Shown here: positions 683-51,953 of the stretch, one piece after another
Layout: each line of letters opens with the position of its first letter
Numbering within the stretch: position 1 is the stretch's first letter
Assembly (NCBI GenBank): GCA_944321565.1
Contig: CALULT010000015.1
Span: 1-51,953, forward strand
DNA: 51,953 bases
DNA from: an uncultured Paraprevotella sp.
GTDB taxonomy: Bacteria > Bacteroidota > Bacteroidia > Bacteroidales > Bacteroidaceae
Direction: 5' to 3'
The notes under the pieces: generated by a model
Databases searched by the model: none
What the model saw: the letters and a program-made list of their open reading frames with translations, nothing else
What the model was told of the DNA's origin: nothing
Program-made: the position numbers and the translations under genes

Positions 683-708
683 CCCCTTGTTTTAGCCCCG
701 ATATATGG

Positions 709-728
709 GGTCAGTCCGAAAACCCGGG
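709..728 (+). repeat. Extra solo end resembling the inverted repeat of the 214-bp element
   Basis: GGTCAGTCCGAAAACCCGGG closely resembles the left end of the 214-bp element that starts 80 bp downstream (GATCAGTCCGGAAAACGGG). It may be a nested or partial copy. No matching right end was found nearby. Confidence 0.4.
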
Positions 729-789
729 AAATCCATACAGGCTACGACTGTTACCCCATATCACCCTCCGCTTGCAACGCAAAAACAGG

Positions 790-1003
790 GGATCAGTCCG
801 GAAAACGGGTTGTATCGGCATGTCTTATCATTGGGGAAACCAAATCATATAGCTTACTTGGTTGTACGATTAGTAATCGTCCGCCTGTACGATTATAAAT
901 CGTCACGCTGTACGATTATAAATCGTGCAAAGAAGTCAGTTATATGCATCGGGGCATAAAGAGTACTGCATCGTCTTCCGCAACGGGTTTTTCAGACAGA
1001 TCC
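790..1003. repeat. 214-bp intergenic element, copy A1, with inverted-repeat ends and three phased palindromes
   Basis: The ends are imperfect 23-bp inverted repeats (790-812 and 981-1003). Inside are three copies of ACGATT-NNN-AATCGT at 866-880, 889-903 and 912-926, spaced exactly 23 bp apart. A second copy of identical length is at 20897-21110. The two copies share long tracts such as ATCGGCATGTCTTATCATTG. There is no coding capacity worth calling. It lies 8 bp beyond the stop codon of the acyl-CoA ligase gene and might also shape transcript ends. It resembles a MITE or REP-type element. Confidence 0.8.
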
Positions 1004-1011
1004 AAAACAGG

Positions 1012-19534: not shown

Positions 19535-20662
19535 TTACTTTTTCCTTTCCCTATAAGTTTCGGCCAAACGGCAAACTTCCTCCGCAATGCGGTCGGCAGC
19601 ATCCGCAAAAGCCAATTTCCGGATATGTTGTGACAACGTGGCCAAGCGGTTTTCATCCTTCACGGCCTGCAAGGCCAGCGGAACCAATTTGTCCACCGCC
19701 TCCGCATCCTTCACATAAAGTGCGGCATCCTTGTCCACCAATGCCAAGGCGTTCTTTGTCTGATGGTCTTCCGCCACATTAGGAGAAGGCACCAATATCA
19801 CAGGCTTACCCAACAAGCAAAGTTCAGAGATGCTGCTGGCACCCGCCCTCGAAATCACGAGGTCGGCTGCCGCATACGCCTCTTCCATCTTCGCGATGAA
19901 ATCCGTCACGAAGAGGTTCGCCGGCTTGCCTTCCAGCTTCAACGTCTCCTGGATACCGGCATAATAATATCCGCCTGTCTGCCAAATGAACTGCACATCG
20001 GAAGCCGCAATCGTTTTCAGGCTCTCCAACATACTTTCGTTCAACGTCCGCGCCCCCAAGCTTCCCCCGATGAGCAACACGGTCTTCCGTCCCGGCAACA
20101 AGCCGAAAGCGGCCAAAGCCTCATCATGGTTTTCCGCATGTTGCAACAACCCCTGGCGCACGGGATTCCCCGTCAACAGGATTTTATCCTTCGGGAAAAA
20201 ACGCTCCATGCCATCGTATGCCACACAAATCCGGTCGGCACCTTTGGCCAACAGCTTGTTGGTCACGCCGGCATACGAGTTTTGTTCCTGGATAAGCGTG
20301 GGAATACCTTCTGCCTGTGCCACGTTCAAGGTCGGGCCACTGGCATATCCGCCTACGCCCACCACGGCCATCGGCTTGAAATCACGGATGATTTTCCGGG
20401 CCATACGCCGGCTCTTCCAAATTTTGAAAAGCACAGCCACATTCTTCAACAAATGTTTCCGGTCGAACCCGCAGATAGGCAACCCCTTAATGGGATAACC
20501 TGCCGCTGGCACCCGCTTCATTTCCATCCGTCCTTCAGCGCCAACAAACAGGATATCGGCCTCCGGATGCCTCTTTTTGATAGCATTCGCAATGGACACG
20601 GCCGGGAAAATATGTCCGCCCGTGCCTCCTCCGCTCACGATAATTCTAAGCTCTTCTTTCAT
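19535..20662 (-). CDS. murG: UDP-GlcNAc:undecaprenyl-PP-MurNAc-pentapeptide GlcNAc transferase
   Basis: The 375-residue GT28 enzyme makes lipid II from lipid I at the inner face of the membrane. The N-terminal loop GGGTGGHIFPA is at residues 11-21, and the UDP-GlcNAc site motifs RAGASSISEL and PSPNVAEDHQTKNA are in the C-terminal half. ATG 20662 is used; an in-frame TTG at 20683 would coincide with a promoter-like box. Unlike its neighbours, murG does not abut the gene before it: 629 bp separate it from ftsW, with a 214-bp repeat element in that gap. Confidence 0.96.
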   Translation of the reverse strand: MKEELRIIVSGGGTGGHIFPAVSIANAIKKRHPEADILFVGAEGRMEMKRVPAAGYPIKGLPICGFDRKHLLKNVAVLFKIWKSRRMARKIIRDFKPMAVVGVGGYASGPTLNVAQAEGIPTLIQEQNSYAGVTNKLLAKGADRICVAYDGMERFFPKDKILLTGNPVRQGLLQHAENHDEALAAFGLLPGRKTVLLIGGSLGARTLNESMLESLKTIAASDVQFIWQTGGYYYAGIQETLKLEGKPANLFVTDFIAKMEEAYAAADLVISRAGASSISELCLLGKPVILVPSPNVAEDHQTKNALALVDKDAALYVKDAEAVDKLVPLALQAVKDENRLATLSQHIRKLAFADAADRIAEEVCRLAETYRERKK

Positions 20663-20680
20663 GAGGCTTGATTTTATCAG

Positions 20681-20688
20681 CAAAAATA
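20681..20688 (-). promoter_or_regulatory. Possible internal promoter for the murG-ftsZ block
   Basis: On the minus strand TATTTTTG (TAnnTTTG) lies 18 bp before the murG ATG. It would let the downstream half of the cluster be transcribed despite the inserted element. Confidence 0.5.
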
Positions 20689-20896
20689 GTAATAAAATCG
20701 GGATTTAGACACTTTTTTCTCCTCTATTTTACTAAGAGCAATAAAGAACTATTACATTTCGAAAACTTTTCGCACCGCAAAACTACAGACAAACGACAAA
20801 AAGAATCCACGGATATTGCATCGAACTGCCCCGTATCCTTTCCCCAAAAACAATTCTTGTCCATAGAAAAACTTTATCCCAAAGGGGAGAAATCCA

Positions 20897-21110
20897 GAAT
20901 CAGTCCGGAAAGCCGGTTGCATCGGCATGTCTTATCATTGGGGAAACCAGGTCATATAGCTTACTTGGTTGTACGATTATAAATCGTCCGCCTGTACGAT
21001 TATGAATCGTCACGCAGTACGATTATAAATCGTGCAAGGAAGTCAGTGATATGCACCGGGGCATAAAGCCCCCTGCATCGTTTCCCGAAACCGGTTTTCC
21101 AGACTAATCC
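20897..21110. repeat. 214-bp intergenic element, copy A2, inside the division cluster
   Basis: Same length and design as A1 (790-1003). Ends: GAATCAGTCCGGAAAGCCGG at left and, reversed, GGATTAGTCTGGAAAACCGG at right. Palindromes ACGATT-NNN-AATCGT sit at 20973-20987, 20996-21010 and 21019-21033, again at a 23-bp period. Arms are identical in all six palindromes of the two copies, while the three central bases vary (AGT, ATA, ATG). It has no coding capacity. Confidence 0.82.
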
Positions 21111-21291
21111 AGAAATCCCCTATCCCTAATCAGGGGATACCGTTTTTCGCCGCAAACAACAAAAAATTGTGAACCGACAGGACTTTATCAAGGAAAAACT
21201 CCCTGAAGTCCTATTGTCCACTCTCCCGTACAAACAAATGCCATTAAAACGCGACACACCGCGCCCCTACTGCAAATGAATGGAATTTGAA

Positions 21292-22542
21292 TTACTCAAA
21301 AGCTTCCGCCATTTGCTCTGAGTTTTCGTTCTCTGCTTCCACTTTGTCCGCCTCGCCAGACCGCTTCTTTTTGGCCGACCGGCTCACGCTCAAAATTATT
21401 CCCAAATATACACAATTGATGACCGTCGAAGTTCCTCCTTTGCTAATTAAAGGCAAAGGCTGCCCCGTCACGGGAAAGACCCCCACGGCCACGGCCATAT
21501 TGATAAGTGCCTGGGTGACCAACATCAATGAAAGCCCCATGACCAAAAAAGCCGGGAAATTGCGCTCGCATCGGCTGGCAATACGCGCAGACCGGAATAG
21601 CAACACGATGTAGAGGAACATCACGAAAGCACCTCCGGCCAATCCTAGTTCCTCTATCACAATGGCATAGATGAAATCGGAAAACGATTGTGGAAGGAAA
21701 TCGCGTTCCACGGAATTTCCGGGGCCTTTTCCCACCACATTGCAAGTGGCGATGGCTATCTTGGCATGAGTCACCTGCGGATTTGCAGAAATGTTGTATT
21801 CTGCCGGATCGTCAGGTGCCGGGCCATGGTCGCGCACACGGTCGGCCCACGTGGGCACACGATGCAACAAAGGCAACTCACCGACAGTCTTCAAAGTGGA
21901 TGAAGGGGCATAGGCCAGGAATACGAATAATGCCGCACCTGCCACGGTCAACCCTCCCAAAAGGGAGCCCAACTGTTTCCAAGGCACACCGCCTACGAAC
22001 ATCATAATCAGCACGACTAAAAATGTCATAGCTGCCGTGGAGAAATTTTCGGGGACAATCAGTCCGCATATTAGCACCGCCATAATCATAATCCACTTGA
22101 ACGCCCGCCATTGGGCACCTTTTTCATCACGCATGCTGGCCAAAATCATAGCCACAGTCGTAATCAACACGCCCTTGGCAAGTTCAGAAGGTTGGAAACC
22201 CACTCCGGCCACTTCCAGCCACCGGCTGGCATTGTTCACCTTTTCCGTGAACATGGCGACAACCAAGAACACCACCGAGACCGGAATGCCCAACAATGGA
22301 ATGAGCTTGAAATAACGGCAGGGAATCTTGTGGATCAACAACGTGGCTATCACGCCAATCACGAAATAAGAGCCGTGCTGCAAGATGGGTTTCCAGTAAT
22401 ACCCCGTCTTGTAACTCATGTTGCTGGAAGCACTATACACCTCGATGATGGAAACTAAGCCAAGAAAGAACAAAATCATCCATATCACTTTGTCGCCCTC
22501 AAAAAGCTTCCACTTCCTTAATACTTTTGCTGCTGTGACCAT
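21292..22542 (-). CDS. ftsW: Septal peptidoglycan polymerase FtsW (SEDS family)
   Basis: The 416-residue polytopic membrane protein has about ten hydrophobic segments and the SEDS signatures GVGFQPSELAK, GKGPGNSVERDFLPQSFSDF and GQPLPLISKGG. It polymerises glycan strands from lipid II at the septum together with the class B PBP FtsI, encoded five genes upstream. The C-terminus ends in an acidic tail. It lies 15 bp after murD on the same strand, followed by the 629-bp gap before murG. Confidence 0.95.
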   Translation of the reverse strand: MVTAAKVLRKWKLFEGDKVIWMILFFLGLVSIIEVYSASSNMSYKTGYYWKPILQHGSYFVIGVIATLLIHKIPCRYFKLIPLLGIPVSVVFLVVAMFTEKVNNASRWLEVAGVGFQPSELAKGVLITTVAMILASMRDEKGAQWRAFKWIMIMAVLICGLIVPENFSTAAMTFLVVLIMMFVGGVPWKQLGSLLGGLTVAGAALFVFLAYAPSSTLKTVGELPLLHRVPTWADRVRDHGPAPDDPAEYNISANPQVTHAKIAIATCNVVGKGPGNSVERDFLPQSFSDFIYAIVIEELGLAGGAFVMFLYIVLLFRSARIASRCERNFPAFLVMGLSLMLVTQALINMAVAVGVFPVTGQPLPLISKGGTSTVINCVYLGIILSVSRSAKKKRSGEADKVEAENENSEQMAEAFE

Positions 22543-51753: not shown

Positions 51754-51953
51754 AAAGGTGAGAGACGAGGCAAGGAAAAGCGTGATTTTCCGTTGACTCG
51801 GCCGAACCGCATCCTATATTCGCGAAGCAAATATGCCAAAGGTGAGAGACGAGGCAAGGAAAAACGTGATTTTCCATTGACTCGGCCGAACCGCATCCTA
51901 TATTCGCGAAGCAAATATGCCAAAGGTGAGAGACGAGGCAAGGAAAAACGTGA
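51754..51953. repeat. 84-bp tandem repeats upstream of rnhB (about 2.4 copies, cut by window end)
   Basis: AAAGGTGAGAGACGAGGCAA recurs at 51754, 51838 and 51922, exactly 84 bp apart, with only one or two differences per unit. The unit includes a CGTGATTTTCC tract and ATATTCGCGAAGCAAATATG. The array continues past the window. It is in frame on the minus strand (84 = 28 codons), but composition and lack of a start make coding unlikely. Confidence 0.88.

Follow-up and report, generated by a model that had tools for sequence, protein, structure and literature searches.

Phased palindrome arrays on a MITE-like element of Paraprevotella as candidate sites for HU-HIG proteins of Bacteroidales

Two 214-bp elements, each carrying three short palindromes at an exact 23-bp phase, lie in a 51,953-nucleotide stretch of DNA (the window) from an uncultured Paraprevotella sp., and they raise the question of what kind of element this is and what its palindromes are for. 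The window is contig C15 of a draft genome of 3,036,363 bases in 105 contigs. An initial annotation, made from the window alone, had placed MITE-like units at 790–1003 and 20897–21110 and had suggested that their palindromes are a row of sites bound by a dimeric protein. Both elements were found, the target-site duplications setting the second at about 20896–21110. All six ACGATT-NNN-AATCGT palindromes are exact, with starts at 866, 889 and 912 and at 20973, 20996 and 21019, and their centres read AGT, ATA, ATA (copy 1) and ATA, ATG, ATA (copy 2), as had been described. The features are as follows.

707..734, + strand: stretch resembling an IS/MITE end, GGGGTCAGTCCGAAAACCCGGGAAATCC, like the printed IS ends; perhaps a remnant of such an end
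782..789, unstranded: left target-site duplication of copy 1, AAAACAGG
790..1003, + strand: MITE-like copy 1, 214 bp (genome blastn and exact 8-bp duplication on both sides)
790..813, + strand: left imperfect terminal inverted repeat of copy 1, of the type found in ISAon1-like IS ends
846..946, unstranded: imperfect inverted repeat surrounding the copy 1 array (49-nt arms, 73% complementary)
866..880, unstranded: copy 1 palindrome unit 1, ACGATTAGTAATCGT
889..903, unstranded: copy 1 palindrome unit 2, ACGATTATAAATCGT
912..926, unstranded: copy 1 palindrome unit 3, ACGATTATAAATCGT
980..1003, − strand: right imperfect terminal inverted repeat of copy 1
1004..1011, unstranded: right target-site duplication of copy 1, AAAACAGG
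20888..20895, unstranded: left target-site duplication of copy 2, AGAAATCC
about 20896..21110, + strand: MITE-like copy 2 (blastn and target-site duplication)
20973..20987, unstranded: copy 2 palindrome unit 1
20996..21010, unstranded: copy 2 palindrome unit 2
21019..21033, unstranded: copy 2 palindrome unit 3
21111..21118, unstranded: right target-site duplication of copy 2, AGAAATCC

Allowing up to two mismatches, eight palindrome matches were found in the window (the six exact ones and two elsewhere with two mismatches each), compared with a mean of 2.44 and a maximum of 5 in 100 shuffled windows. Copy 2 is flanked by a glycosyltransferase-28-domain gene (19535–20683, − strand), which is probably MurG-like, and by a gene with an FtsW/RodA/SpoVE domain (21292–22542, − strand). 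Two further observations concern the window itself: positions 602–635 resemble a tRNA 3′ end, perhaps a partial tRNA left behind by an integrated element, with no tRNA call there by ARAGORN or Rfam, and the right contig end (51761–51953) consists of direct repeats of ∼84 bp starting at 51761, 51845 and 51929.

The element is not limited to two copies. A blastn search of its own genome gave 23 rows at 18 distinct places (five rows being reverse-strand repeats), of which 11 are near full length, with identities of 71 to 100%. Among 60 relatives, including 17 congeners, one copy was found in one congener (G017), and a weak match in a genome of another genus (G018). The element is thus not a pair of copies in one strain, which would have spoken against the initial annotation, but its many copies were seen only in this one genome of the genus. 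The copies are short (214 bp) and count as non-coding, mechanically called ORFs overlapping copy 1. They contain between zero and three palindromes. Most near-full copies have the full three, whereas C3:108417 and C46 have two each, C70 has a single one and C3:19234 has none, some units in C46, C70 and C79 having a 2-base centre. Imperfect terminal inverted repeats of 20–24 nt were found at both ends of most near-full copies. Exact 8-bp target-site duplications flank three of the 11 copies tested (L001, L003 and L005); L004 has an 8-bp duplication with one mismatch at shifted borders and the other seven have none that is clear. At L021, L011 and further loci of this genome other repeats adjoin the element copies, for example AAGAAGATATGCTTACTTGG-like stretches.

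The end pattern CAGTCYGRAAANNNNGTTGC (up to two mismatches) occurs 54 times in the genome, compared with four times for the reversed control. The ends of contigs C1, C3, C13, C19, C64, C88 and C93 carry an end of this type running into an IS body, and in C9 an ORF that begins MKQWQVLRTVFPEV comes after an element-type end, so that the MITE ends match those of an IS that runs off several contigs. This ORF, the only long piece of an IS reading frame, fits the NCBIfam model ISAon1_upstream weakly (E = 0.066), and the model had no match when run against the genome; the other IS end, read outward, presumably resembles the C-terminus of ISAon1 transposases. A transposase with matching terminal repeats was to be looked for according to the initial annotation; ends common to an ISAon1-like IS were found, but an intact transposase was not seen. 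The MITE-like character of the unit is nevertheless largely established by the IS-shared ends, the 8-bp duplications in three of 11 copies and the many copies, and the 214-bp units would be MITE copies probably moved in trans by the ISAon1-like insertion sequence.

The palindrome arms are the most constrained part of this element. When nine near-full copies from the genome were aligned, 35 of the 36 arm columns were invariant and the mean pairwise diversity of the arms was 0.006, compared with 0.451 for the centres, 0.170 for the spacers and 0.161 for other internal columns; the arms, which might have varied as freely as the centres, clearly do not. When the palindrome layout was slid along the element, the real layout was the most conserved of 153 positions. 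All 31 exact palindromes in the genome lie inside element copies, and those with one mismatch occur at seven places, two in element copies and five elsewhere. As the arms are frozen while the centres are free, something keeps the arms in this genome. A purely selfish structure, in which the palindromes aid MITE transposition or are products of template switching and no protein of the host takes part, would account for the restriction of exact palindromes to MITE copies in this genome and for a unit number that varies from 0 to 3. A copying artefact, however, would not spare the arms while centres and spacers drift, and the distribution of the array in other genomes makes this explanation very improbable: among the listed stretches described below the flanks vary by genome, and many arrays are without ends like those of the window MITE.

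Many Bacteroidales have GATTANTAATC cores at a 23-bp phase, some genomes holding dozens. When named genomes were scanned for GATTNNNAATC cores in threes with 23-bp spacing, at least 114 stretches were obtained; 112 of the 114 listed come from Bacteroidales records (judged by titles; Gallipaludibacter was checked), and the other two, from Chloroheliaceae and Desulfobulbus, were dropped before arrays were counted. Among the 112 listed arrays, 82 have three units, 25 have four, two have five and three have six. In the 373 units scored (cores with up to two mismatches) positions left free by the search pattern were also conserved: position 5 is A and position 7 is T in 98%, the outer bases are likewise A and T in 98%, and only the very centre of the unit is free; the commonest unit among the listed arrays is A[AC]GATTANTAATC[GT]T. 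A two-unit pattern (up to one mismatch) was found in 17 of 399 genomes of the family, with counts of up to 102, compared with two of 399 genomes, once each, for the reversed pattern. Viral spread was considered and set aside, the viral collection having one stretch with two phased cores.

Numerous short palindromes in intergenic copies and clusters would also fit repeats of the REP/BIME type, mobilized by a REP-associated tyrosine transposase (RAYT). This origin is extremely improbable and was rejected: Y1_Tnp (PF01797) was found in four of 14 array genomes at E ≤ 0.001 (three over the cut-off) and was not found in the array-rich genomes G061, G062 and G066, and a fixed 23-bp phase with a free spacer is unlike REPs.

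A candidate protein was found beside the arrays. The 544 ORFs neighbouring arrays were clustered, giving five groups common to at least three genomes; one of these comprises six ORFs of ∼150 amino acids from six genomes, with the 5′ end facing the array at 24–135 bp, and no other group lies so near the array in all of its members. By Pfam the group is HU-HIG (PF18291), all four proteins scanned matching with E values of 7e-19 to 3e-22 and with 68.6–79.5 bits against the curated family cut-off of 26.2. HU-HIG proteins have an HU domain fused to a wHTH, Ig or glycine-rich motif. The only solved relative found was IHF-beta (8flj_F; sequence match, E = 0.0027), and HU-HIG genes are frequent among the gut Bacteroidales covered, with PF18291 profile matches numbering from 2 to 32 per genome in 17 genomes.

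At 100 HU-HIG-type loci in 13 genomes (98 PF18291 hits and two weak hits), a GATTNNNAATC array lies upstream, within about 600 bp, at nine loci and downstream at none, the DNA covered having a median of 597 bp upstream and 453 bp downstream. Eight of the nine belong to one subfamily (HU-HIG-P), with one such gene in each of G061, G062, G066, G067, G068, G069, G074 and G075 and with the units 74–206 bp before the start codon. One HU-HIG-P gene, that of Phocaeicola intestinalis at L137:1469–1918 (translation confirmed), has a three-unit array of its own. The array of L248, which lies 498–544 bp upstream and beyond an apparent reverse-strand ORF, was rejected as a promoter array. A subfamily profile was then searched against 68 genomes, and hits of at least 200 bits were obtained in six of 17 array-positive genomes (G080, G105, G189, G215, G262 and G339) and in two of 51 array-negative genomes (G290 and G331; G417 reached 199.8 bits), the latter having been picked from five of the seven array-positive genera. 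Only G189, G262 and G339 add independent cases, because the others form pairs of apparently the same or nearly the same genome (G061/G215, G062/G105 and G066/G080; G064/G018 is a further such pair). In the array-positive genomes an array lies upstream of all seven strong HU-HIG-P genes; that of G262 has decayed, with one of its three units still exact, that of G189 has two exact units and that of the second gene in G339 lies at −322 to −276, with ∼200 bp apparently inserted before the gene. Upstream of the genes in G290 and G331, a pair of AAGAT-N5-ATCTT units together with a weaker third one, phased at 23 bp, was recognized by eye, unflagged by the scan. In locus L378 of G339 an apparent insertion of ∼200 bp with AGCTGTTTTGAATTT-like ends separates the array from the HU-HIG gene, and a similar end lies beside the array in L092.

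The link is incomplete. The other 11 of the 17 array-positive genomes gave no subfamily-profile hit of at least 200 bits, including G018, where the two-unit pattern matches 28 times, and G086, where it matches 25 times. In the window genome seven PF18291 matches were found, none close to HU-HIG-P (best profile E = 1.5e-18), yet the arms are conserved there, which counts against an HU-HIG reading; they may be kept in Paraprevotella by an undetected binder or by selection during transposition.

The dispersed arrays mostly resemble the promoter array of the same genome. Dispersed units (promoter arrays excluded) were scored by outer base (A or C) and centre (A/T or G/C), and in seven of eight genomes they mostly fit the promoter type, which was assigned by eye. 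For G061, with a promoter type of A and A/T, 66 of 69 dispersed units agree on both features, as do 8/8 in G068 and 6/9 in G074. Dispersed units have C in 63/64 and G/C in 59/64 (G062), C in 31/42 (10 mixed) and A/T in 42/42 (G066), C in 40/40 and G/C in 39/40 (G067), and A in 3/6 (three mixed) and A/T in 6/6 (G069); among the loci retrieved for G075 there was no dispersed array. The two HU-HIG-P paralogues of G339 differ in their arrays, AAGATTATTAATCTT standing before one and ACGATTACTAATCGT before the other, and dispersed arrays of either type occur in this genome.

For other HU-HIG genes the 320 bp upstream were scanned, without reference to sequence, for palindromes repeated three times with a constant period between 15 and 35 bp. 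The 122 non-redundant regions without GATTANTAATC comprised 84 from the family search and 38 added for resemblance to HU-HIG-P. A score of at least 19 was reached by 21 of them (20 falling within the 84), compared with none of 1220 shuffles, two of 117 downstream regions and none of 436 upstream regions of other ORFs (Fisher p = 3e-15), these last being taken from array loci and including coding stretches; at this strict threshold 101 of the 122 have no array. At a score of at least 17 the counts were 54/122, compared with 68/1220 shuffles, 8/117 downstream regions and 38/436 other ORFs. The periods of the 21 high scorers were 22 bp (eight), 21 bp (seven), 23 bp (three), 33 bp (two) and 16 bp (one), so that 18 of them lie at 21–23 bp; the upstream arrays of L241 and L317 have a best period of 33 bp. 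Palindromes of these genes include AATCATTGCCGATGATT, TGGAATGTATATTCCA, TTGCACGTGCGTGCAA and AAAGGTATATACCTT, and they can differ between close relatives, for example L241 and L271. Half-site similarity tracks protein similarity when the GATTANTAATC group is included (rho = 0.22, p = 4e-4, 33 genes) but does not when it is left out (Mantel rho = 0.067, p = 0.13, 24 genes). At L232 (G061:C118) about five GAGTTGGGCAACTC-like palindromes at a 22-bp phase lie downstream of the HU-HIG gene and precede an ORF starting MYENVSEQRKQELNILKVW, which was not identified as HU-HIG.

These results bear on whether the arrays could be sites of a different regulator, for instance a classical transcription factor, with HU-HIG genes merely as frequent targets. 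The absence of a strong subfamily hit from the window genome and several array-positive genomes, the phased array before the L232-adjacent ORF and the failure of half-sites to track protein similarity outside the discovery group are all in keeping with such a regulator. The arrays of HU-HIG paralogues, however, differ in spelling at a similar phase and would therefore not be explained by one shared regulator, and the two paralogues of G339 pair with two site types; we consider another regulator unlikely.

The arrays might instead act as RNA hairpins, in leaders or intergenic transcripts, with an effect on termination, stability or translation, and the HU-like protein might bind them in that form. 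The element gives a good RNA fold (z = −5.9 for one strand and −4.9 for the other), and a TAnnTTTG-like box, which we take to be of the Bacteroides −7 type, lies within 80 bp before the array in 16 of 28 HU-HIG arrays (some of them from near-identical genomes), compared with 18% of random windows, so that many arrays are probably transcribed. Against a role as RNA, the arm sequence itself is kept beyond what pairing would need, and copy 2 lies between same-strand genes whose domains are of cell-wall type, where a strong terminator would hardly be expected. Orientation to genes is also unbiased: ORFs were called by a simple script, with 18 of the 112 listed arrays overlapping a called ORF and 10 at an edge, and the 84 between called ORFs comprise 27 convergent, 20 divergent and 37 co-directional cases, so that no promoter bias of dispersed arrays was seen among them. 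A known RNA family was rejected, Rfam giving three tRNAs only in 10 array loci, none of them on the array, and no match in window positions 1–22000. Taken together, a function as RNA is quite improbable and the arrays would act as DNA.

The reading that we prefer is that the arrays are probably self-regulatory operators for HU-HIG dimers, one type of which has spread over the genome and been taken up by a MITE. Each palindrome would be one site for an HU-HIG homodimer, with three or four dimers in a row, and the array of 23-bp-phased palindromes would be the cargo of the MITE. Where the system is intact, the HU-HIG gene would have such an array ahead of it or in its leader, through which it probably represses itself, and copies of the array would be spread over the chromosome; other HU-HIG paralogues would use their own, differently spelled phased arrays. 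The dispersed copies may serve chromosome organization, regulation or transposition. The original proposal of a site array for a dimeric protein on a MITE-like unit is thereby supported, the reading of the palindromes as putative binding sites being strongly favoured by comparison, namely by the frozen arms and free centres, the 23-bp core found across Bacteroidales and the position before one HU-HIG gene, the site type of which mostly agrees with the dispersed arrays.

Relatives of the window element occur in the Bacteroides MAG G067, where blast gave seven rows at six loci with 81–89% identity, covering the outer parts; G067 also has an HU-HIG-P gene with an array of the C, G/C type. The simplest history would be that the MITE acquired its array in a protein-bearing genome and later reached Paraprevotella. 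A broader proposal is made more tentatively, at somewhat less than even confidence: the HU-HIG proteins may be a large Bacteroidales family of site-specific HU-type proteins, in which each paralogue recognizes its own palindrome as a row of dimers at 21–23 bp and controls itself. Some paralogues would then have seeded dozens of arrays, forming a nucleoid system addressed by sequence, and mobile elements could capture these arrays and bring them into further genera.

HU-HIG shares a protein superfamily with IHF and HU by sequence. HU is largely unspecific and the IHF site is asymmetric, and we know of no phased palindrome arrays differing between paralogues for HU/IHF, the clades of which were reportedly analysed in a 2017 study by Burroughs and colleagues. 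Operator or iteron arrays are repeated sites adjoining the gene of a self-regulating DNA-binding protein; the present arrays likewise lie beside the gene of the presumed binder, but unlike them the same array type occurs at dozens of chromosomal places in some genomes and on a MITE. The BOX elements of Streptococcus have the structure boxA-boxBn-boxC and are similar in architecture, being MITE-like units in which the number of inner modules varies. Here, in contrast, the inner module is a 15-bp palindrome at an exact 23-bp phase, which is also found without the outer parts and before the gene of a DNA-binding protein. REP/BIME repeats with RAYT (PMC3733652) share dispersed, intergenic and sometimes clustered palindromes; the phase of the present arrays is fixed and RAYT is not consistently found with them. 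The GTAG/CGTC tags described in that paper are absent from the conserved array unit. In the open-licence PMC papers searched, no DNA target of the HU-HIG family was found, and nothing on topic for palindrome arrays of this kind.

That the array also occurs without the MITE and can be assigned a candidate protein family goes beyond what the single window could offer, and the combination of array and HU-HIG points to an undescribed protein-and-site system. A number of HU-HIG paralogues gain a concrete candidate site, with the simple prediction that protein X binds array X, and the function of this large uncharacterized family therefore becomes testable. The findings suggest a sequence-addressed HU-type nucleoid protein and, through the element relatives in Bacteroides, show a route by which such sites can reach another genus on a MITE.
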